DNA of 36,045 nucleotides from Marivita sp. (GTDB taxonomy: Bacteria; Pseudomonadota; Alphaproteobacteria; Rhodobacterales; Rhodobacteraceae), in NCBI RefSeq assembly GCF_017643905.1, contig NZ_JAEPMO010000024.1, positions 1 to 36,045 of the forward strand, given 5' to 3'. Each line of letters opens with the position of its first letter. Positions within the stretch are counted from its first letter, which is position 1. Shown piece by piece: positions 3,473 to 36,045 of this stretch. The notes under the pieces are model-generated. The model made no database searches and was not told where the DNA came from. It saw only the letters and a program-made list of their open reading frames with translations. The translations under genes were made by a program, and so were the position numbers.

Positions 3473-4702
3473 TCAACCCTTCCACCAGCGGCGCGGCTCG
3501 ACGTTTTCGGCCAGCGTGTGCGGGTTGTTGCGGACTTCGTTGTAGATGTCCTGATAGGTGTCGATGCCGTCGGCCCAGCCGTTGATCCGCTCGCGCCACT
3601 GCTCCCAGAGCTGCGGCTGGAACTCGGGCGAACACATTTCTTCGGCCTTGCGCACTTCTTCGTCCGAAAGCTTGGCAACGCGCACGTTGTTCTGCGCAAA
3701 GATCGTGCCGGGCATGGGCGGATCGGTAAAGCCGACGGTGTTGACCAGCGCCGCTTCGTTTGCCGCCTGCACATGCACCTGCGTCAGGTACGAGGCCTCC
3801 ATGACAGCATCCTGCAATTCACCCGACAGACCGTCGAAGGTCTCGGACCGCATCGCGGTGTGCTCGGTGCCGCAGAAGAAACGCAGATCGACGCTCTGGC
3901 TGACCACCGGCGACATATTTGCATAGGCCACGGCCGATGCCCATGTTTCCGCGCCGTCGATGAGGCCCTGCTTGAGACCGTCGAGCGTTTCTTCCCACGC
4001 GATCGGAACCGGGTTCAGGTTGAGCGCTTCCATCGCGATGCGGCCAAGCTGCGTGCCGGTGACGCGGTTCTTGGTGCCCATGATGTCTTCGATCTTTGTG
4101 ACCGTCGGCTTGTCGGCAAAGCTTTGACCCATTTGAATGCCGCGCAGTTCGGCATGGGTGAAGAGGAACTTCAGACCATGACGCTTTTCGAACGGATCAC
4201 GCAGAATACGCTGCGATTCCGGCGAATACATAAAGTAGTACTGATCCGCGCGGCTGCGGAACATGTACGCGTAATCGAGAACGTTCAGGAACGGCGCACC
4301 TCCGGCCGAGTTCTGGGTCGAAGCCGCGTAGATGTCGATGATGCCTTGCTGCGCTTTCTCCACGCAGGACAGCTGGCCGCAGATCTGGTTGTTGCCGATG
4401 AATTCGATGCGGATCTCGCCGTCCGTGCGCTCTTCCAGATCGCGCGCGAACTCAAGGCAGCCTGCGCGTTCGATCAGCAGGTTCTGCGGGTTAAAGCCTG
4501 CGGCACCAAACTTCAGAGTGTGCTTGGCTTCTTTCGCAAAGCGCTTGTTGTAGGTCGATTCCGCAGCCTTGGCGAGGTTCGCAGCGGTCATCACACCACC
4601 GAATGTTCCCGCCGCCAAAAGCGTCGAACTCATCCCGTAAGTCCCCGCAATGCGGAAGAAATCTCGGCGCGAGACTCCCTTGATACGATCTCCGATTTTC
4701 AT
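3473..4702 (-). CDS. dctP: TRAP transporter substrate-binding protein (DctP family), Tat-exported
   Basis: This 409-aa periplasmic binding protein opens with a twin-arginine signal (SRRDFFRIAG, residues 11-20) followed by a hydrophobic stretch and an AKAA cleavage-like site. That start is fixed by a strong Shine-Dalgarno (GGGAGGAG) just upstream of the ATG at 4702. The body has the DctP pattern of a TRAP ligand-binding protein, including IEFIGNNQICGQ, an ELRGIQMGQ segment and the carboxylate-arginine region around KNRVTGTQLG. It delivers substrate to DctQM. Tat export suggests folding before export, as reported for some TRAP binding proteins. The substrate is unknown; the divergent GMC dehydrogenase is a plausible first catabolic step. 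Confidence 0.93.
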   Translation of the reverse strand: MKIGDRIKGVSRRDFFRIAGTYGMSSTLLAAGTFGGVMTAANLAKAAESTYNKRFAKEAKHTLKFGAAGFNPQNLLIERAGCLEFARDLEERTDGEIRIEFIGNNQICGQLSCVEKAQQGIIDIYAASTQNSAGGAPFLNVLDYAYMFRSRADQYYFMYSPESQRILRDPFEKRHGLKFLFTHAELRGIQMGQSFADKPTVTKIEDIMGTKNRVTGTQLGRIAMEALNLNPVPIAWEETLDGLKQGLIDGAETWASAVAYANMSPVVSQSVDLRFFCGTEHTAMRSETFDGLSGELQDAVMEASYLTQVHVQAANEAALVNTVGFTDPPMPGTIFAQNNVRVAKLSDEEVRKAEEMCSPEFQPQLWEQWRERINGWADGIDTYQDIYNEVRNNPHTLAENVEPRRWWKG

Positions 4703-18009: not shown

Positions 18010-18514
18010 CAGTGATCCCTAGGGCGACAGCACACCGTCCGGACCGAAAGCGAACACCCTCTCGAACCGCGTCGCTGCGACAGCCCATGGCTACCTCTGC
18101 ATTATCCCCGGATCAAGGTGCCACGGGAAACCGCGAAGGGCCTGGCCTAGTGGCTAAGCTTTGCCTTGCCGCTTGTCCGGTCGCGCAACAGTTCGATGTC
18201 AACGCGTCGTCGACAGCGGTGTGGCTTGCGGTCCGGGACAGGCAAGACCCACGTCATGCTATGCATCATTTCCTGCAGCTTTACCGTGCGATGAAGACCG
18301 GTATGCATCGACATCCGGCCCACCACGAACCAAGCGGAATCGCACGATCTTTAATTCGTTTTGAATCAAAGGTCAGGGAAAAAATCCGTAGGGAAATGGC
18401 GGAGACGAAGGGAGCACAACCCACCTTGCTCACAAGGTTCAATTGGGTTACTTTATCCATACATGACAGCTAGTTAGCGCATATATGTTCCACAGTGATC
18501 CAGAGCGTTCCTGC
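18010..18514. other. Non-coding 0.5-kb stretch upstream of the integrase
   Basis: No supported gene. The ORF-track frame at 18012-18473 has no recognisable protein features and no Shine-Dalgarno. The 3' half becomes AT-richer approaching the integrase. A tRNA or other attachment gene, often beside integrases of this type, was looked for here and not found. This stretch probably contains the chromosome/island junction, but I cannot place it. Confidence 0.4.
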
Positions 18515-18551
18515 TGTATCCACGGCTCAAAGTGTATCCAGAGTGTATCCA
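18515..18551 (+). repeat. Three direct repeats TGTATCCA at the integrase 5' end
   Basis: TGTATCCA occurs at 18515-18522, 18533-18540 and 18544-18551. The last two are part of a longer AGTGTATCCA repeat with an 11-bp period, about one helical turn. The final copy runs into the integrase ATG, and a degenerate version (AGTGATCCA) lies just upstream. The helical spacing suggests binding sites for the integrase (arm-type sites) or for a repressor of its promoter. Confidence 0.65.
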
Positions 18552-19813
18552 TGGCAACAGCATTATCGACCGACATCGCGATCAAGAAATGGAAGCCTTC
18601 AAAGGAAGGCGAAGCTCGTAGCGTAGGAGGCCGCGACGGCCTCTATGTGCGGGGATGGCCCACCGGAGCAAAAGCTTTCTACCTGCGTCAGGGCACTTGG
18701 CTGAAACTTGGCGACTATCCAGAGGTCAAGCTCAGCTCAGCCCGCGAGTTCGCTCTCGTTGCCAAGCGGCTACGCGACGAAGGGTTTGGCACAGCCACCA
18801 TCAAGAAGGGCCTGACGAACGCCAAAGACGCCTCAACATTCGAAAAGGTTGTCCGTGGCGAAATCTTGGGGGGCGTTACAGACGATGCGGCGCGCGTGCC
18901 AACTTACGATGAAATGTGGAAGGAGTGGTTCGCCGACATCGAGCCCCTTTTGCAGGAGGGACCGAGCCGTCGTCGGCCTCGCGCAATTCACGATCAGCAT
19001 ATCAGCCCCGTGATCGGCAAGCGCCCCATCAACGAAATCCGGCGCAGGGAAATCTACGACATGCTGCTGCCGATGTTCCGCGAGATCCCTGTCTCGGCCG
19101 GGCATGCGCTTGGTCATGTCAATAAGGTTTTCGAGTTGGCGATCACGCGCGAGTTCCGAGAGGAAAATCCAACGCCGCCCCGCTCGCAATTCCCGAAGCG
19201 CACGACAACCAAGAAATCACATGGCACCCTGCCCTACGAGAAGATGCCGGAGCTTTGGCAGGCTGTCACAGAAGGCAATGCCGGCATGTCTACACGGCTC
19301 GCCATCCTGACCGCGATGGTCACAGGGCACCGTATCGGTGTGGTCGTCCAAGCCAAGTGGGAACACATCGACTTCGAGACTGGGAGCTGGACCATACCTG
19401 CCCGCAAGAACAAACAGGACAAAGGCCGGATGAAGTCTGGCCGCGAGTACGCCCTGCGCTTGCCAGATGGTTTATTGACCCGCTTGAAAGCCCAGAACAC
19501 GCGGAACGAATACGTCTTCGAGAGCCCCACGACAAAGGGCAACGTCTCCGCCAACGCGCTGCTCAAAGTTCTCAAGCGGTTCGATCCTGAGCTGACGAAC
19601 CATGGCTTCCGAAACGCAATCAAGGAGTTCTGCCGCAAAGCCGAGCCACCGGTGCCTGACCACATCGCCGACGCGTTCTGCGACCATTCCTTGAAAGGGC
19701 TGGATGCCTCCTACCGCCGGATGGATACGTCGAAGGAACGGGCTGAACTTGCCGCGCGCCTGTATGACTTCGTCGTCGGAGTGGTTCCAGCGAAGGATGT
19801 AGCGGCCGGATAG
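18551..19813 (+). CDS. Tyrosine-type site-specific integrase (DUF4102 N-terminus)
   Basis: This 420-aa protein has the usual length for island integrases with an N-terminal DUF4102 arm-binding domain (GLYVRGWPTGAKAFYLR, LGDYPEVKLSSARE), a core-binding region in the middle and a C-terminal catalytic domain. The catalytic residues are in place: Arg in the MVTGHRIG box (about residue 261), His-x-x-Arg in TNHGFRN, a following DHS, and the nucleophile Tyr in ASYRRMDTSKE (about residue 387). The enzyme should be functional. ATG 18551 is preferred because the family N-terminus starts there; the ORF-track frame has 22 extra unlikely residues. It marks the left side of the acquired island. Confidence 0.92.
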   Translation: MATALSTDIAIKKWKPSKEGEARSVGGRDGLYVRGWPTGAKAFYLRQGTWLKLGDYPEVKLSSAREFALVAKRLRDEGFGTATIKKGLTNAKDASTFEKVVRGEILGGVTDDAARVPTYDEMWKEWFADIEPLLQEGPSRRRPRAIHDQHISPVIGKRPINEIRRREIYDMLLPMFREIPVSAGHALGHVNKVFELAITREFREENPTPPRSQFPKRTTTKKSHGTLPYEKMPELWQAVTEGNAGMSTRLAILTAMVTGHRIGVVVQAKWEHIDFETGSWTIPARKNKQDKGRMKSGREYALRLPDGLLTRLKAQNTRNEYVFESPTTKGNVSANALLKVLKRFDPELTNHGFRNAIKEFCRKAEPPVPDHIADAFCDHSLKGLDASYRRMDTSKERAELAARLYDFVVGVVPAKDVAAG

Positions 19814-26028: not shown

Positions 26029-26355
26029 CTAAGGAAACAGTTTTTTAAAATGTGGCTCCGTAAAAAAGTAGTCGTGCCAGCGCCTCAAGGACGAAGGATG
26101 AACCGGAGGGCGGTGCTGGAAGAAAGTCCCGCCTGTGAAGAAATGAAAATATAGGCTCTCCACCCAGCGGTCGATCAGGGCCTCATCGGACAGGCCATGC
26201 AGATACTGCAAGTACATCAGCCCTGCTACCAATCGCGGGGGTATGGCTGGTCGCCCCGTCGTCGTCGAAAAGAACCTGGCCCATTCCTGACCTGAGGATA
26301 AACCACACCGTTTGATGAACTGCAAAACGGCTAAAGCAAGTGTATTTCGGCGCAC
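26029..26355 (-). pseudogene. IS5-family transposase, N-terminal fragment
   Basis: The frame encodes 108 residues with the N-terminal signature of IS5-family transposases: GRPAIPPRLVAGLMYLQYLHGLSDEALIDRWVES, then YFHFFTGGTFFQHR and HPSSLRRWHDY. In an intact element this domain is followed by a catalytic DDE domain of over 250 residues. Here the frame diverges after the PSSLRRW motif and stops about 13 codons later, next to the alkaline phosphatase promoter. No DDE domain, and no intact ends, were found nearby. It is a dead remnant that marks past transposition in the island. Confidence 0.85.
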
Positions 26356-26891: not shown

Positions 26892-27569
26892 TCAATCCAC
26901 AACGGGATAATAAGGCGCACCCCAATCTTCGTTTGGGTTCGACATCATCGTGTCGACAAAGACGGGCAGAAGGCTCAGCAGCAACTCTGCCCCATTACGC
27001 ACCTGTTTACGGTTTACCTGACTGTTCCAGGTTGCGCCACCATGCACAAGCTGGTTGCGCAGTACATAGAGCCTGTCGAAGAGAATGCTCATCAGCTTCG
27101 CGGTCTCCTGCCCCTCGATCGCATATTGCGCGGCCTTCTTGGCGTTCTCGAAGCGCAGTTCCCAGTTGCCATACTGGGCATCGCCATTGTGGAATTTCCA
27201 GAACGGGCTGAAGATGTATTTGTTGTCCAGAAGCTCGGCCACCACCCCTTCGAAGTGGTGCCAGATTTCATGACCGATACGACCTTTTGGGTCGCACAGC
27301 ACAAGCGCGTCGAAGAAGTTCTGAAAATCTGCGCGCGCGAATGACCCTGGATCATCCCCCAAGTCCTTCGCGTAGGCGGCGTTGAAGGCAATCCAGCTGA
27401 AGATGAACGCGGCGTCAGGGTCTTCATCGATCAATGCTGCCGCCCGGGCGATCCAACTGATGGACCGGTGCGTGCGCAGGTTCAGCTCCGGGGAATTCTG
27501 TTCGCGCAACTGCCGGTGCTTGTCCCGCAAGTAATCGAATTCGTTCGATACCTCTGCCATCACGCTCAT
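26892..27569 (-). CDS. HEPN-domain protein (ApeA-like), putative RNase
   Basis: This 225-aa mostly helical protein has the HEPN hallmark RX4H, here Arg171-NQLV-His176 in LRNQLVHGG, near the end of a long helical region. HEPN domains with this motif are often metal-independent RNases in toxin-antitoxin, CRISPR-associated and anti-phage systems. The N-terminal half (WIARAAALIDED..., FIFSWIAFNAAY) fits the ApeA/RiboL-PSP-like HEPN style. Its ATG overlaps the stop of the 158-aa gene (ATGA), so it is translationally coupled to it. Activity and target are inferred. Confidence 0.75.
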   Translation of the reverse strand: MSVMAEVSNEFDYLRDKHRQLREQNSPELNLRTHRSISWIARAAALIDEDPDAAFIFSWIAFNAAYAKDLGDDPGSFARADFQNFFDALVLCDPKGRIGHEIWHHFEGVVAELLDNKYIFSPFWKFHNGDAQYGNWELRFENAKKAAQYAIEGQETAKLMSILFDRLYVLRNQLVHGGATWNSQVNRKQVRNGAELLLSLLPVFVDTMMSNPNEDWGAPYYPVVD

Positions 27570-28042
27570 GCTCCCAGTCTACGCGCAATGGCATTTCCGA
27601 GGCGCGACGTGATCAGCGCCCAGACGGTACCGCCGCCCGTGCCCGCGCCACCGTCACCCCAACGTTCACTTCTCATGGCATAATGCAGGATCCTTCGCAG
27701 GTCGCGCAGGCAGAGAGACTCGACAAGCTCGAGATTGTTCACGAGCTTTCGCATGAACTCTAGCACCGGCGTTTTTTTCGGGTCCCCCATGTCCTCCCCC
27801 TCATCGCGGCAGACAAAGCCACAGGAATGGGCCGCATTCATGAAGACGGACCATTCAGCCCAATAGATCGGTCGAAGCCGCTCTTCGCGCGAAGCACTTT
27901 CATACCGGTCCACCAAATCCCGCAAGCGCGCCCCAACGAACCGCACCTGTTGGATGGTCAGCTTTTCTTGAAGACTGAACGGAGCATCACGAATATCAGG
28001 ATCATTTTCCAGTGCTCGCATCTTCAGAACGGCTCCCCACAT
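27566..28042 (-). CDS. Hypothetical protein between exoI and HEPN genes
   Basis: This 158-aa protein is not recognised. It looks helical and charged, with a Cys-containing middle (HSCGFVCRDEGEDMGD) and a Gly-rich segment (GDGGAGTGGGT) before the C-terminus. The start at 28042 overlaps the exoI stop by 19 bp; an alternative ATG at 28021 would abut it. It overlaps the HEPN gene by 4 bp. Such tight coupling on both sides suggests that it works stoichiometrically with the HEPN protein, for example as an inhibitor or a sensor subunit. Confidence 0.65.
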   Translation of the reverse strand: MWGAVLKMRALENDPDIRDAPFSLQEKLTIQQVRFVGARLRDLVDRYESASREERLRPIYWAEWSVFMNAAHSCGFVCRDEGEDMGDPKKTPVLEFMRKLVNNLELVESLCLRDLRRILHYAMRSERWGDGGAGTGGGTVWALITSRLGNAIARRLGA

Positions 28043-29486: not shown

Positions 29487-29507
29487 GACATACGCACGTG
29501 ATATGTC
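29487..29507. promoter_or_regulatory. 21-bp dyad GACATA-N9-TATGTC between the exoI and AAA operons
   Basis: A perfect 6-bp inverted repeat with 9-nt spacing, and CACGTG inside the spacer, overlaps a TTGACA (-35 consensus, 29485-29490) that points toward the AAA gene. It lies in the 121-bp gap between the two divergent operons. The WYL protein encoded in the AAA operon is the natural candidate ligand. No good -10 element at proper spacing is visible, so promoter assignment is weak; the dyad itself is certain. Confidence 0.5.
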
Positions 29508-29530
29508 TTGCGGATCATCAAGGAGGCCGC

Positions 29531-31567
29531 ATGAAAAACAAGTACGAACAGGCATATTTAATCGAATTAGCAACACGAATTGCCTTACAATTTCGCGCAA
29601 GAAGCATTGCCGCACAAGAATTGTCAAACTGGATGGAAAATTTCGATTTAGGTTTCGACTGGAATCCCGATTTTGACACTTACAAACAAAAAGGTGTTCC
29701 AGCGGATATTTGGAGTCAACTACGGGGCCTCCTAACTGAGCTGGACAGAACAAAGTTTGAACCAAAACCGGATGCACTTGGTCGCAACATTAACGTTCTG
29801 GCCACTCATGTTGCTTTGAATTCCGATGAACAGGTAATTTTCGAACTGGCCGTTCGCGCAACACGCAATGGCCCTGTCCGGTCGTTGTGCACCGGTCTTG
29901 TCGACGACGCTCGGCTTTCGGTGGAGGATGCAATTACAAGTCTTACGGGCCTTCCATCCGCAAGCGTTCGCCGGTCCCTATCATACTCCGGTCGCTTGTT
30001 ATCTTCGGGTCTAGTGCAATTCGAAAAGCACCCTTTTCATGGGCTTGGACTTGCTCCGCTGAATCTCATTGTAGAAGCCCTCGAACCCCCTTCGCGCAGT
30101 CTGGACGATATCCTGAGCAAACTATTCGCCCCTGTCAGCTCCACGACGTTAGCCTGGGAGGATTTCGAGCATCTTGGCGCTGGGCGCGACTTTGCCTTCC
30201 GCCTGCTGCGCGGTGCTCTTGATCGCTGCGAAAAGGGCGTGAACATTCTGCTACACGGAGCCCCCGGGACCGGCAAAACGGAGTTCTGCAAGGCGCTTGC
30301 AGAGCGCCTCGGTGCGGGATTGCATGCTGTCGGTGAGGCTGATGATGAGGGCGACGAACCATCCCGTTCCGAACGTCTGCAGCAATTGCGTCTCGGTCAA
30401 CGGCTGCTTACTGATCAGGGAAACAGCCTGATCCTCTTCGACGAAATGGAAGACCTGTTTCCCGGGCTCGACAATGGCCCCTTTGGTCTGTCGCTCCGCC
30501 GCTCCGGCTCGAAAGTCCACGTCAACAGGCTATTAGAAAACAACCCAATCCCAACATCGTGGACGACCAACAACATCAGGGACTGCGATCCAGCATTCCT
30601 CCGACGGATTTCCTTCACGCTGGAGTTGCGCACACCACCAGTTTCTGTGCGCAGCCACATATGGGAGAAGCTTGCCAAGCATCACCGGGTTGCGCTGCCC
30701 AAAGACCTCTGCCTCGAACTCGCCCAAAGCATGGAAGATGCGCCTGCACTTGCCGATAGCGCACTTCGCGCAGCGCGAATTACATGCGGTGGCGCGGACG
30801 ATGTGAAGCTTGCGGCATCTGCGATTTCGCGTGCCGTGCGAGGGGGGCACACCCCACTCGTAGCACCGAGCAGTGTCAGATTTGAGCCTGAACTGGCCAA
30901 TGCTGACCATGACCTTGCACTGATCACAGAAAGGTTCGTGGCCTGCGGTCCAGCCAATACCGGTGGGCTGTGCCTCAGCGGCCCTCCCGGCACCGGCAAA
31001 AGCGCCTTTGCCCGCTATCTCGCAGACCGAATGCAGATGCCGGTCCTCGAGCGACGAGCTTCTGATCTTCTGGATCGCTATGTCGGCGGAAGCGAGCGCA
31101 ACATCGCCGATGCTTTTGCCGAAGCGCGCGACACCAACGCGTTTCTTGTATTCGATGAAGCGGACTCACTATTGGGCGCGCGCGATGGCTCAAGGCATCG
31201 CTGGGAAATCTCGCAGGTCAACGAAATGCTGACTTGGATGGAAAACCATCCCCTGCCCTTCGCCTGTACCACCAACCTCATCGAACATCTGGATCCCGCC
31301 ACGACCCGACGCTTCAGCCTCAAGATCAGCTTCTTGCCGCTGAGCGCACAGCAACGTGAAGCGTGTTTTTGTCGCTTTTTCAAATCCGATCCGCCCTTGG
31401 GGCTTTGGGAACTCGACCAACTGACGCCCGGGGACTTCGCTGTGGTGGCCAAGCGATCGAAATTGCTTGGGATCCCTGAACCCGAAGCGATCCTCGTCGA
31501 GCTGCGCCGCGAGCAGGCAGCCAAGCCTAATAGGGGGAGCCCGATAGGGTTTCGTGTTGCAAGCTGA
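29531..31567 (+). CDS. Tandem AAA+ ATPase
   Basis: This 678-aa protein has an N-terminal region of about 200 residues with no recognised fold and two AAA+ modules. The first has Walker A GAPGTGKT (about 245), Walker B LILFDEMED and a TTNNIRDCDPAFLRRI sensor/Arg region. The second has Walker A GPPGTGKS (about 485), Walker B FLVFDEADS and TTNLIEHLDPATTRRF. Both look able to bind and hydrolyse ATP. The double-ring layout resembles Cdc48/NSF-like unfoldases. A strong AGGAGG precedes ATG 29531. The first 100 codons are AT-richer than the rest. It is followed by a WYL regulator and divergent from exoI, so a role in the same defence-like module is plausible. Confidence 0.88.
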   Translation: MKNKYEQAYLIELATRIALQFRARSIAAQELSNWMENFDLGFDWNPDFDTYKQKGVPADIWSQLRGLLTELDRTKFEPKPDALGRNINVLATHVALNSDEQVIFELAVRATRNGPVRSLCTGLVDDARLSVEDAITSLTGLPSASVRRSLSYSGRLLSSGLVQFEKHPFHGLGLAPLNLIVEALEPPSRSLDDILSKLFAPVSSTTLAWEDFEHLGAGRDFAFRLLRGALDRCEKGVNILLHGAPGTGKTEFCKALAERLGAGLHAVGEADDEGDEPSRSERLQQLRLGQRLLTDQGNSLILFDEMEDLFPGLDNGPFGLSLRRSGSKVHVNRLLENNPIPTSWTTNNIRDCDPAFLRRISFTLELRTPPVSVRSHIWEKLAKHHRVALPKDLCLELAQSMEDAPALADSALRAARITCGGADDVKLAASAISRAVRGGHTPLVAPSSVRFEPELANADHDLALITERFVACGPANTGGLCLSGPPGTGKSAFARYLADRMQMPVLERRASDLLDRYVGGSERNIADAFAEARDTNAFLVFDEADSLLGARDGSRHRWEISQVNEMLTWMENHPLPFACTTNLIEHLDPATTRRFSLKISFLPLSAQQREACFCRFFKSDPPLGLWELDQLTPGDFAVVAKRSKLLGIPEPEAILVELRREQAAKPNRGSPIGFRVAS

Positions 31568-31675
31568 TCGCACGTCTCCTTACGACACCACGACAGCGCA
31601 CGAAAACGCATGTCAATGGCTCTGCTTGAAGCCATGAAATGTTTGCGCCAGTCTACGGGAATTGGAGACACCACA

Positions 31676-32665
31676 ATGCGTTATGGCCGACTCACAGATC
31701 TTGTTAGGCTGGCCATGCAGATGCAGGGCCGCGCCGATGGTCTGTCGCTGGAAGACATCAGTCAGACCTTTGAAGTGTCGCGCAGGACGGCTGAGCGGAT
31801 GCGCGATGCAATTCGTGACGCATTTCCGCAAACGGAGGAACTTTTAGAGGAAGGCGGGCGGAAGCGTTGGCGCTTGCCGCCTGGCACCGCAGGCCGCCTT
31901 GCCGACCCGACTGTAGATGATATCGCCACACTTAAGCGGGCCGCCGACCTCGCTCGACAATCGGGCGACTTTGGCACCGCTGAGCGCCTCGACATGCTAT
32001 CAGACCGGTTGCGTGCTCGCCTACCAGGCAAAAGACGAGCACAGCTTGAGCCTGATATCGCCGCACTCCTCGAGGCAGACGGCGTTGCCCTACGCCCTGG
32101 TCCCCGCGAGCGCATTCCGAGGGAAACACTGAACACTCTTCGAGAAGCAATCCTTGCGGGAGTTTGGATCGACGTTGATCATAGGTCTCGCTCATCTGGG
32201 CTTTTGAGCCGCAAAGCCCGTCTCGGTCCCCTTGCCATGCTGCTTGGTGAGGGCAGGCAGTACCTTGTGGCCTTCAGCGCCTACGCGAAGGATGTGCGTC
32301 TCTTTGCGTTGGCCGGATTCGAGCGGATCGAACTGACCGAAGATGTTTTTCAGCGCCCCGAAGATTTCGACCTATCCACCTGGATGCAGCGATCCTTCGG
32401 CATCTGGCAGGAAGATGTCTACGATGTCGTTTGGCGCTTCACGCCCGAAGCGGCAAAGGACGCGCGCCTATATTTGTTCCATCCGACACAGGTCATGACC
32501 GACGAGCCGGATGGCAGCCTTACAGTGTCATTCCGCGCAGGTGGGCTGCGCGAAATGTGCTGGCATTTGTTCCGGTGGGGAAGTTCCGTAAAGGTTGTTT
32601 CACCTCGCAAACTTCAAGAAGAACTTTCAAGGACAGTCAAAGATAACTACCCGGAGTACATCTGA
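31676..32665 (+). CDS. WYL-domain transcriptional regulator
   Basis: This 329-aa protein has an N-terminal winged helix (residues about 1-65; LSLEDISQTFEVSRRTAERMRDAI), a helical linker, and a WYL-type domain (about 160-250; ARLGPLAMLLGEGRQYLVAFSA) plus a C-terminal WCX extension (VKVVSPRKLQEELS). This is the layout of BrxR/CapW-like regulators found beside phage-defence systems. Nucleic-acid or nucleotide signals are thought to act through the WYL domain. I chose ATG 31676 (MRYGRLTDLV) because GGAG lies upstream and the ORF-track addition is unlikely. It is downstream of the tandem-AAA gene. Confidence 0.88.
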   Translation: MRYGRLTDLVRLAMQMQGRADGLSLEDISQTFEVSRRTAERMRDAIRDAFPQTEELLEEGGRKRWRLPPGTAGRLADPTVDDIATLKRAADLARQSGDFGTAERLDMLSDRLRARLPGKRRAQLEPDIAALLEADGVALRPGPRERIPRETLNTLREAILAGVWIDVDHRSRSSGLLSRKARLGPLAMLLGEGRQYLVAFSAYAKDVRLFALAGFERIELTEDVFQRPEDFDLSTWMQRSFGIWQEDVYDVVWRFTPEAAKDARLYLFHPTQVMTDEPDGSLTVSFRAGGLREMCWHLFRWGSSVKVVSPRKLQEELSRTVKDNYPEYI

Positions 32666-32728
32666 AGTGCTTGCTTAAAAAGCTGGTAACACGCACTGAA
32701 CACTGGTCACCACCTAAAAGGATTATTT

Positions 32729-33391
32729 CTATGATGATTCCATTCCTGCCAGCCATTGGGGTATCTTCTTGTAACTTCTGTATATTCCCACAACAGTCGA
32801 AACGAAATTTTCAATCTCATCGTCCAAACTCATATTCTTCTTTGTTGAGCCAAACTCTTCAGCTTGAATCATCTTTCTAGCAATATCATTCCTTCTAACT
32901 GCATTGTCCAAATCAGCTTGTGGTGGAAATTCTTCATGTATACCACTTGCGCTCATGGCTTCCACTTTATCCCGAATGTGCTTTTTCGCGTCATCAAGCC
33001 CACGTCCAAAAATGCGCTGTTGAGGTAAGGAAGCCAATATTTCAAGCGCCAAGCGGCCGTCTTGTGCAGTTGGAAAATCTATCACTATTGCTCCCAGACT
33101 AACAGTATCAACTTCTTTTTCATTCTCATCAATATTTTCCAAAGCACGCTGCACACTAAATTTAGCTACAACTCCGTTCCCAGAATTTTGCCTCTTCACA
33201 TCTTCTACAATGTGACCAACATTGAGCTCTTCTGACAGACCCTCGTCATCCTTAATTGCATCTTCAAGTGCCTTGAGAAGTTCATCCCTCAATTCATTGC
33301 GGCGCTCCAACAAAACTTCAACAATTCGCCAATTGTTCCAAATTATCGACTCCACACTTTCGACCGCATTTATCTCGTTACTAGATGTCAT
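32729..33391 (-). CDS. Hypothetical acidic protein, AT-rich cassette
   Basis: This 220-aa protein is acidic and probably helical, with no recognised domain. ATG 33391 (MTSSNEINAVESVESII) is chosen because GGAGGGAG lies just upstream; the 18 extra ORF-track residues overlap the nuclease gene. It overlaps the nuclease stop by 11 bp, so it is coupled to it. Codon use is AT-rich, like the rest of the cassette. It may be a partner, regulator or immunity protein for the nuclease. Confidence 0.7.
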   Translation of the reverse strand: MTSSNEINAVESVESIIWNNWRIVEVLLERRNELRDELLKALEDAIKDDEGLSEELNVGHIVEDVKRQNSGNGVVAKFSVQRALENIDENEKEVDTVSLGAIVIDFPTAQDGRLALEILASLPQQRIFGRGLDDAKKHIRDKVEAMSASGIHEEFPPQADLDNAVRRNDIARKMIQAEEFGSTKKNMSLDDEIENFVSTVVGIYRSYKKIPQWLAGMESS

Positions 33392-34748
33392 GGATTCTCC
33401 CTCCAAGTTTCTCATAGACTGCTTCATCGCAACAGCTATCAACATGGTTCAGTTCTGCAAGTGCCACATCGAGGGACGCAGAAGATGCAACTGGAAACCG
33501 CCTAGTGAGTGCCGGTTCAGCTATTCTCAGCCTTAGATCTTCAATGTTAGACACCAAGTCTATACCAGTCGCCAAACGAAGAATTGTTGTTCTAAAAGAC
33601 CGAATCAAATCAAGTCGACCCAACTGCAGATCTCGATCAATACACAGACGATACAGCATCTTATCAATATCAAGCCAATCGATATGCCGCACTGGCAAAC
33701 CGTGCTCATATTTACGCTCACCCATATATTCATGCTTTGAGATGCACTGATGCCTTGGGTGAATCAGCACAGGAACCACAGCAGCCCTACCAGCATCAAA
33801 GAAATGTTTACTGCGCTCCAAGCCTTTATTTGCACGTGTGCATTTTTCCCATGCACCCCTCCAACCCTGAAAAGAAGAAAAATGCGATGATGATGTGTTT
33901 TTATCAAATCTCAAACTGCTTCTGTAGGCCTCAAGCATTAAACGCCACATTTCACCGTATAATGCTGCTTGCGCCCAAGTCTGATCATTAAATTTGTACA
34001 ATGACTCGCTAGCGTACACTTTAACTTCTACAGGAATAATGTAGCCTTGCACCATGATTAATATGTCGACGCGCAGTCTTCTAGACTTTTCAGATTTCTG
34101 TTGAGAAGTCTGCTCATATAAAGGCTGAAAAAGCTCACCATTGGGTATATCCCAACTTACCTCACTAACAATTTCAGCATTTAGGCTTTGAGAATAATCG
34201 AACAGACGACCCTGACAGTCCACGCCCAGGCGAGCAAGGAAAAGTCGTAGAAATGCATCTCCAACACCGTGTGAACTTTCAGGAGTTAATAGCCACAATA
34301 ACAACTGACAAAACACAGTTTCACTTCGGTCTACGCCCATCAGCGAAAGAATGTCGAAGTGTACCGGAAGGCCCTCGTATGGCTTGAGAACAGTTTCGGC
34401 TTCCCTTAAACGGTTCGCACTAGTTTCGCTATACAACAGAACTGTTTTATCAATAATAGCATGAAATTTTTTGATATCTTCCGCTGGTGAAGGAAAACCG
34501 ATCGCCCCATCTAAATATGATGCTTCTAATGAATCACCTTCTCCATTGATGACTTTTCGAGCCTCCTCAACGACCTTGACAACGCCATCCAAATACTTAT
34601 CAGTTTTTTCAAAAGCACTTGATGTAACTCGATGCGCAATCACAATGCTCGGATCAATTGCTACCCGCACATCACTAATAATAGAAAGTATGCGTTCGAT
34701 TTCTCCTTTAGAATCCATATCAATTGGTCTTTCATCTCTATTACACAT
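33381..34748 (-). CDS. PD-(D/E)XK nuclease-family protein
   Basis: This 455-aa protein carries the PD-(D/E)XK core of the PDDEXK_4-like family: a helix with ETVFCQLLLWLLTPESSHGVG (142-162), then Asp228 in RVDILIMV and the Glu241-Val-Lys243 pair in PVEVKVY, then a Gln-containing helix (NDQTWAQAALY). The motif is intact, so DNA cleavage is likely. The N-terminal 130 residues are unrecognised. It is in a minus-strand trio with a metallophosphoesterase and an acidic protein, with AT-rich codons unlike the flanking genes. A target cannot be stated. MDSKGE at 34718 is an alternative start. Confidence 0.78.
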   Translation of the reverse strand: MCNRDERPIDMDSKGEIERILSIISDVRVAIDPSIVIAHRVTSSAFEKTDKYLDGVVKVVEEARKVINGEGDSLEASYLDGAIGFPSPAEDIKKFHAIIDKTVLLYSETSANRLREAETVLKPYEGLPVHFDILSLMGVDRSETVFCQLLLWLLTPESSHGVGDAFLRLFLARLGVDCQGRLFDYSQSLNAEIVSEVSWDIPNGELFQPLYEQTSQQKSEKSRRLRVDILIMVQGYIIPVEVKVYASESLYKFNDQTWAQAALYGEMWRLMLEAYRSSLRFDKNTSSSHFSSFQGWRGAWEKCTRANKGLERSKHFFDAGRAAVVPVLIHPRHQCISKHEYMGERKYEHGLPVRHIDWLDIDKMLYRLCIDRDLQLGRLDLIRSFRTTILRLATGIDLVSNIEDLRLRIAEPALTRRFPVASSASLDVALAELNHVDSCCDEAVYEKLGGRIHDI

Positions 34749-34784
34749 TATGTTCGTCTACACCTCTGGATTAGCGCATCATTT

Positions 34785-35675
34785 TCATCGCTTCAGCACT
34801 TCAATATTATCATTAGACAATGATTTCTCCCCCACCCAATGATAAATGCAGATTTTTTCAGGGTAATCCAAACAAGCAGCTTGCTCAGACTCAATCAATG
34901 GCTCGCCTTTCATTTTGTAATGGCCCACTAGCACAGGAGATTTGCCTTCACCATAAACGGTAATTCCTTCTGTACCTGAAACAGACGTATCAGGCAACTG
35001 CGTAACATCTGGTACAGCGAGTGCCAAATCACGCCAACTTCCCTGCAATGATTTCCACCACGCAAGACGCACCTTATTCCGCTTCACACCTTTATAATCG
35101 TAGAACCAAAAATTATCTGGCAGCATAACCTCAGGACCTGACGTTAGCATCTCTACAGCCATAGCAAATTCACTTTCTTTGTGAGCTACCTCTTCAAGGT
35201 CATCAGCAGTAAGCCGCCCATCTGGTCGTCGCTCCTTCACCATTTCGATTGCAATCTGATCCCAGCAAGCATGCACAAGATTCAATCCTTCAAGTTCAAT
35301 CCAGAGTGGAATACTCAAAAACCATTCAGTCCATTCAATCGCGGAAGGTGTTGCGAAGCCTATATTGTCCAAGAAACTTGCATGCTGGCTGACGTTATTT
35401 GAGCTGTGCTGGCGCAGAGGTGCCCCTTTGTTATCTCTCCGGTGAAACAAAATAGCGTTGAGTTCATGGTTCCCCATGACTGCCAGAGCGCCCTCGTGGT
35501 CCACAAGTGATCGCACTTTGCGAAGTACGGAAGCATCATCAGGCACGTCGACAGAGTTGCCTGCATCAATAAAATCACCAAGAAAAGCAACATTCGATCC
35601 AGTTGCAGCATCCAGCGATGTATGCAAACGGGTAGGGTCCGCATGGATGTCTGGTATAATCGTTAAACTTGTCAT
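34785..35675 (-). CDS. Calcineurin-like metallophosphoesterase
   Basis: This 296-aa protein has the calcineurin-like motifs: PDIHAD (Asp9, His11), GDFIDAGN (Asp34), GNHE (69-71), a central NLVHACW His and GHYKM near the C-terminus. It should bind two metals and hydrolyse phosphoester bonds in a protein, nucleotide or nucleic-acid substrate; bis(5'-nucleosyl)-tetraphosphatase-like proteins share this style. It is the first gene of the AT-rich trio with the PD-(D/E)XK nuclease. A GGTAGAG Shine-Dalgarno precedes ATG 35675. Confidence 0.85.
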   Translation of the reverse strand: MTSLTIIPDIHADPTRLHTSLDAATGSNVAFLGDFIDAGNSVDVPDDASVLRKVRSLVDHEGALAVMGNHELNAILFHRRDNKGAPLRQHSSNNVSQHASFLDNIGFATPSAIEWTEWFLSIPLWIELEGLNLVHACWDQIAIEMVKERRPDGRLTADDLEEVAHKESEFAMAVEMLTSGPEVMLPDNFWFYDYKGVKRNKVRLAWWKSLQGSWRDLALAVPDVTQLPDTSVSGTEGITVYGEGKSPVLVGHYKMKGEPLIESEQAACLDYPEKICIYHWVGEKSLSNDNIEVLKR

Positions 35676-35753
35676 TTTTTCTCTACCTGTTGCTATGCTC
35701 CAAAATCACGACTGATTTCATGTCGAGTACTCGTCGCCAAATGTACTTCGCAT

Positions 35754-36045
35754 TCAGTCAACTTGAGAGCTTCCATCCCTGATCTCAACCGTCGCCCGGT
35801 CGATCCAATGAACCGCAATTTCTGCGAACCTAACCTGTTCAGCGAGTGCAAACACTTGCTGATAGGCCTGAAGTTGCGCAAAGTATGCCTTGAAAGATCC
35901 CGATCCGCTCTTGTGATCAAGAATCAGACACTTCCCTTCGCCCGTCGCCAGAAGATCAATGATCCCGTTGAATTCCGCGCCCGATGCTTCACGCTTCTGA
36001 ACCGGCACCTCGCATTCGATCTCCGTATAGCCCTCAGCCGTCAGC
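35754..36045 (-). CDS. C-terminal end of UvrD/AddA-like helicase-nuclease (partial, runs off the window)
   Basis: The minus-strand frame is open from the window edge to the stop at 35754 and encodes 96 residues. It shows a RecB-family nuclease domain: PVQKREASGAEFNGIIDLL, then CLILDHKSG (the D-x-K core) and a Gln-helix (YFAQLQAYQQVF). In AddA-type and other UvrD-like proteins this domain is at the C-terminus, following the helicase. The helicase part is outside the window. The high-GC codon use contrasts with the AT-rich trio just downstream. ORF-track ATG 36008 is internal. Confidence 0.7.
   Translation of the reverse strand, partial: LTAEGYTEIECEVPVQKREASGAEFNGIIDLLATGEGKCLILDHKSGSGSFKAYFAQLQAYQQVFALAEQVRFAEIAVHWIDRATVEIRDGSSQVD

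Follow-up and report, generated by a model that had tools for sequence, protein, structure and literature searches.

An AT-rich MPP-NUC-ACID segment as a probable filling of a variable AddA/WYL slot in a defence-type island of Rhodobacteraceae-like bacteria

The stretch of Marivita sp. DNA analysed here, referred to as the window, is the whole of contig C19 (36,045 nucleotides). Close to one end it carries an AT-rich block of three genes on the minus strand, which encode a metallophosphoesterase (MPP), a PD-(D/E)XK nuclease (NUC) and an orphan acidic protein (ACID). The reading we favour, with modest rather than strong confidence, is that this AT-rich trio occupies a variable slot between the AddA and WYL genes of a modular defence-type island in Rhodobacteraceae-like bacteria. 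The wider gene set of the island comprises a DSP-ADP-ribosylglycohydrolase (ARG), an AddB-AddA pair, MPP, WYL, an AAA ATPase and ExoI. MPP repeatedly adjoins ARG, WYL and AddAB-like genes, and NUC and ACID are confined to this allele. The features are as follows.

26892-27569 and 27566-28042, minus strand: H1 and H2, backbone proteins; H1 has homologues at L016, L155, L157 and C54
28024-29433, minus strand: SbcB/ExoI-like DEDDh exonuclease (PF08411, 1e-20; PADLOC RTasSbcB, 7.4e-140)
29498-31567, plus strand: double AAA ATPase, paired with WYL (PF00004, 6.2e-34)
31610-32665, plus strand: WYL-WCX transcription-factor-like gene, convergent with the cassette (PF25583, 4e-15; PF13280, 1.7e-7)
32580-35893, no strand: AT-rich non-backbone segment (ends of blastn similarity to C54 and G752; GC profile)
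32729-33391, minus strand: ACID, orphan acidic protein of 220 aa, pI 4.7; Shine-Dalgarno (SD)-like GGAGG before the ATG at 33391; overlaps NUC
33381-34748, minus strand: NUC, PD-(D/E)XK nuclease of 455 aa (PF14281, 6.6e-12; PADLOC PDC-S26, 3.5e-11)
34785-35675, minus strand: MPP, calcineurin-like (PPP/Pnkp/ApaH-type) metallophosphoesterase of 296 aa (PF00149, 5.7e-6; motifs intact)
35754-36045, minus strand: AddA-like UvrD helicase/PDDEXK_1, C-terminal end, cut by the contig end (PF12705, 3.4e-7)

Composition and boundaries of the block

The three genes form one tight run from 35675 down to 32729, with 36 bp between MPP and NUC and an overlap of 11 bp between NUC and ACID. The end piece of the AddA-like gene lies immediately upstream of the run, 78 bp from MPP. 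A sequence-only reading had already described the close packing, which we confirm with one correction, at the start of ACID. The open reading frame extends from 33445 to 32729, with an alternative start at 33391. GGAGGGAGAATCC precedes the ATG at 33391, and a gene starting there shares its first 11 nt with the end of NUC; no such SD-like site lies ahead of the ATG at 33445. Judged from these signals, ACID very probably starts at 33391 and not at 33445.

The GC content of 32729-35675 is 43.7%. Windows of equal size, taken from samples of the same genome totalling 180 kb, had a mean of 60.5% (sd 2.8, minimum 50.7%, n=276), and none of the 276 was as low, bearing out the earlier impression of a drop in GC relative to the flanks. 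Third codon positions followed the same pattern, with a GC3 of 0.36-0.41 in MPP, NUC and ACID versus 0.57-0.72 in the neighbouring genes. Within the run, NUC and ACID (GC 0.42-0.43) are lower than MPP (0.46). Low GC also extends beyond the three genes, to the 3' ends of WYL and the AddA-like gene on either side. DNA similarity by blastn ends in the same two genes, at 32580 inside WYL against C54, a second contig of the assembly, and at 35893 inside AddA against the relative G752. As alignments to other WYL genes also end at 32580, rapid evolution of the WYL tail may partly account for this boundary.

We found no transposon-type flanking repeats around the block, no tRNA or Rfam family in the region and no DNA match to the block in the plasmid collection; counts of promoters and terminators in the region were near chance level. 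Elsewhere in the window, a tyrosine recombinase with an Arm-DNA-bind_3 domain, of the island-integrase type, is encoded at 18485-19813, and the window yielded no tRNA. A transposase fragment (DUF772) at 26029-26355 lies where the backbone similarity between the window and C54 starts (26672).

The slot and the island in related loci

The same assembly contains a second copy of the backbone on C54, in the order H1-ExoI-AAA-WYL and with 77-86% DNA identity to the window; at the protein level the WYL-WCX and ExoI/SbcB-like copies are 80% and 81% identical. On C54 the C-terminal end of an MPP gene lies 62 bp past WYL, and neither NUC nor ACID is present. An IS-like ORF at the contig end interrupts this MPP and leaves only a remnant, so the C54 locus is partly decayed. 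In G752 the AddB-AddA pair is followed directly by MPP, with 76% identity to the remnant on C54. Since MPP occupies the same place at C54 and G752, the genes specific to the insertion are NUC and ACID, together with a divergent MPP allele. As read from these alignments, the AT-rich block is an alternative filling of the AddA-WYL slot, which holds MPP, NUC and ACID in one case and MPP alone in the other. The simplest reading of the sequences is that a divergent MPP-NUC-ACID segment replaced an MPP-only segment. The cassette had been proposed to be an insertion between two higher-GC defence-like genes. Its foreign composition and the nature of its neighbours agree with that proposal, but the loci compared do not support MPP as part of an unrelated insertion. 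Loci without NUC and ACID do exist; at C54 both are missing and the MPP remnant lies beside WYL.

Two other genes were observed next to these backbone elements. A RelA/SpoT-domain gene directly follows MPP in G752 (L186, 38-625) and is possibly an alternative effector in the slot. In G852 a 356-aa protein with a phospholipase-D-like motif, HxK...GSANASGNG, is encoded directly after WYL, at the slot position of an AAA-WYL locus (L155, 3376-4446).

The missing upstream part of the island is probably on contig C48, which carries an intact DSP-ARG gene and an AddB-like gene; an AddA-like gene also begins there and runs off the contig end after its N-terminal half. Both AddA pieces find their best match in the G752 AddA-like protein, to which identity falls from 95% for the C48 half to 71% for the window tail on C19 (residues 967-1054 of the G752 protein). 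As both are closest to the same protein, we infer that C48 and C19 are probably adjacent, joined over a gap of ~1.5 kb, although the fall in identity between the two pieces counts against this. It also counts against the favoured reading that the genes scanned in the window itself include no ARG. C48 also holds an AT-rich orphan pair between ARG and AddB at 3493-4648 (L165), encoding proteins of 137 aa (40% GC) and 244 aa (45% GC) with no Pfam match, along with a partial duplicate of ARG. The DNA similarity to G752 skips this region, which therefore looks like another insertion in the island.

In relatives the same parts recur in shuffled order. They are arranged as AAA-WYL-ARG-AddB-AddA at L188 and L189, as WYL-AddB-AddA at L190, L192 and L197, and with AddA/AddB, ARG and then MPP at L027 and L038. 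The order at L035 is AddB-AddA-PDDEXK_4-MPP, and the decayed locus L194 retains a PDDEXK_4 gene, remnants of WYL and MPP, and AddB-AddA. The AAA gene adjoins WYL in six of the seven AAA-bearing relative regions examined, and H1 recurs close to AAA, WYL and MPP. The ExoI/SbcB-like gene is paired with MPP on the viral contig L091 too; its product matches PADLOC RTasSbcB, yet the scanned genes included no reverse transcriptase.

The three proteins and the alternative readings

MPP retains the full set of metal-binding motifs (DIH at 9, GD at 33, GNHE at 68, H135 and GH at 251), as the sequence-only reading had claimed, and most of these are invariant or nearly so in an alignment with 19 relatives. 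A profile search of solved structures gave chain 4j6o_A, 'Metallophosphoesterase', as the best match (1.7e-15), followed by Ap4A hydrolases (ApaH) and PP1/PP2A. We take 4j6o_A to be the C. thermocellum Pnkp phosphatase domain, and MPP also weakly matches TIGR04075, the family of bacterial Pnkp. MPP shares its motif set with the bacterial Pnkp phosphatase domain, ApaH and PPP enzymes but differs in being a stand-alone protein and in scoring far below the equivalog cut-offs (25.5 of 750 for Pnkp, 17.9 of 176 for ApaH). MPP probably dephosphorylates products of the ADP-ribose or nucleotide type.

A search of genome contigs returned 149 relatives of MPP. Of 80 MPP loci, ten have an ARG relative within 6 kb, three have AddAB-like genes, three WYL and one AAA at that distance, and on a Paracoccus plasmid ARG and MPP form an operon with 10 bp between the genes. 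The 70 loci that have no ARG within 6 kb suggest that MPP serves other uses too. Given its place at C54 and G752, MPP belongs to the backbone and is a regular component of the larger cluster. A single conserved gene regularly placed 3' of MPP was considered and rejected, as the downstream genes vary. Large N-terminal extensions of MPP at Limimaricola loci, which resemble fusions, were set aside too; they are rich in Arg and His, contain no Pfam domain and are probably antisense ORFs.

NUC passes the PF14281 gathering score (46.2 bits versus 22.3), and the D...ExK core recognised in the earlier reading is in place at D228, E241 and K243. Its N-terminal extension of ~120 aa is missing from Pfam relatives, and its identity to other PDDEXK_4 proteins is 20-26%. 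Distant relatives in four of 296 genomes of the order align over ~45-60 residues at 42-44% identity; among 399 genomes of the phylum no relative was found at 1e-5, and the plasmid, phage and viral-contig collections gave no useful match. The core (residues 130-248) is shared with the PADLOC candidate family PDC-S26, although NUC covers only positions 34-125 of 413 in the best PDC-S26 model, short of a full-length match, and differs by its N-terminal extension and by its run with MPP and ACID. ACID had no significant family or relative in Pfam, PADLOC, NCBIfam, PHROG, the PDB or the genome, plasmid, phage and viral collections, and no orthologue in 385 genomes of the class. Two weak matches in class genomes were rejected because they coincide with a TonB-receptor-like ORF and with a NusA-like gene; weak PHROG, Pfam and PDB matches, at or near chance, were rejected too. 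AlphaFold models of NUC (pLDDT 36.7, from six sequences) and ACID (pLDDT 41.5) were too poor for use. Neither gene occurs at any of the 80 MPP loci. NUC and ACID, for which none of the searched collections yielded a close relative, are newcomers to the cluster; NUC is likely a swapped-in DNA-cutting effector and ACID likely its coupled partner.

Genes of the PF14281 family are scarce, with six hits in 61 genomes of the bacterial family. Non-orthologous PDDEXK_4 genes nevertheless stand beside MPP and AddAB at L035 and, in decayed form, at L194. The co-location at L035, at L194 and partially at L016, a small number of loci, is above the expectation for a random genome, given this rarity. The expected number near MPP in 0.88 Mb was 0.015-0.023 relative to a random genome, a baseline to be read with the clustering that defence genes show anyway, and for the L194 gene among AddA loci it was 0.004-0.006, with the same proviso.

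The main competitor of the slot-filling reading, which we regard as possible but doubtful, is that NUC and ACID are independent hitch-hikers, either a toxin with an acidic inhibitor or a solitary anti-phage nuclease with a partner, beside MPP by chance and unrelated to the island. It would account for the acidity of ACID and the overlap of its gene with NUC, for the fact that the two are never met with MPP elsewhere, for their GC below that of MPP and for PDC-S26 as the source of the nearest PADLOC models of NUC; the orphan pair on C48 shows that AT-rich gene pairs occur elsewhere in the island too. However, NUC begins just 36 bp past MPP on the same strand, the AT-rich composition and the breakpoints are common to MPP, and the non-orthologous PDDEXK_4 genes recur by MPP and AddAB at L035 and L194.

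It is improbable, in our view, that the three genes make up a self-contained defence system, newly inserted as a unit. All three are low in GC, closely packed and enclosed by the breakpoints, but none of the collections searched, including the plasmid, phage and viral ones, gave a second example of the exact trio, MPP homologues fill the slot without NUC and ACID, and a PDDEXK_4 gene lies near only two of the 80 other MPP genes (L035 and, partially, L016). Co-occurrence, which the earlier reading had left to be checked, failed for the exact trio and held at family level, as MPP with AddAB and a non-orthologous PDDEXK_4 gene at L035 and, decayed, at L194. Very improbable is a role for NUC as the endonuclease of a restriction-modification-type system, as suggested by other PDDEXK_4 genes of the family that adjoin MmeI-like methyltransferase genes, since no DNA methyltransferase domain was found among the Pfam-scanned genes at 26-36 kb and NUC is only distantly similar to those proteins and has an extra N-terminal part. 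One such gene is in the same genome, on C191 (L121, 14429-19999), where it adjoins an MmeI-like methyltransferase and a helicase. Judged on the genes seen, the island is not a restriction-modification system.

Comparison with ARG-centric systems and implications

The gene set had seemed unfamiliar in the sequence-only reading. The exact trio is indeed unmatched in the collections searched, but the combination corresponds in outline to a 2022 computational prediction of ARG-centric conflict systems that counter viral ADP-ribosylation (PMC9503650, section 3.8). The predicted systems have WYL or Nudix regulators, phosphatases of the DSP-type/rhodanese or calcineurin-like kinds, and exchangeable restriction-endonuclease-fold effectors with helicases, and they evolve rapidly (PMC9503650, section 3.8). 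They lack a coupled ADP-ribosyltransferase or sirtuin and often include a gene for a peptide-binding chaperone (PMC9503650). The island shares with them the WYL regulator (31610-32665), coupled phosphatases (MPP in the window and the DSP fused to ARG on C48), an endonuclease-fold effector with a helicase (NUC and the AddA-like helicase-nuclease), module exchange and rapid evolution. A general Pfam scan turned up no ADP-ribosyltransferase or sirtuin among the scanned proteins, and, with regard to the chaperone gene, the two orphan genes at 3493-4648 of C48 gave no Pfam match. The island differs in that ARG sits on a separate contig, C48, whose adjacency to the window is deduced, in the prominence of the AddB-AddA-like pair and the double AAA ATPase, and in the orphan status of both the PDDEXK_4 effector and ACID. 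With the adjacency of ARG taken as above, the island fits the published description. The backbone ATPase has also a likeness to IetA of the anti-phage system ietAS, in its second AAA domain (1.1e-26), but it carries two AAA domains and reaches 90.4 bits against an NCBIfam cut-off of 510, and no subtilisin-type protease partner (IetS) was seen among the scanned genes.

We hypothesise that AddB, AddA, MPP, NUC and ACID would form a single operon, which would continue on C48. The WYL protein may detect a nucleotide-like signal and govern the island, ARG would strip ADP-ribose off phage-modified molecules, and MPP would take phosphates off the products of that step. As a second line, the AddAB-like proteins and NUC may then attack DNA; NUC would be the exchangeable DNA-cleaving effector and ACID, translationally coupled to it, its putative specificity or inhibitory partner. 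A more specific proposal, which we put forward as an unlikely one, is that NUC and ACID are an undescribed effector-partner pair that entered an ADP-ribose-sensing island via the MPP slot, with a nucleotide signal made or removed by the phosphatase controlling the nuclease.

The two backbone copies offer a natural comparison, with and without NUC and ACID in one genome, for a class of island known so far from prediction, and they name a slot for effector exchange. Should the predicted function of the island hold, NUC with ACID would be a new effector pair and MPP would be a handle on the nucleotide product that is sensed or removed.
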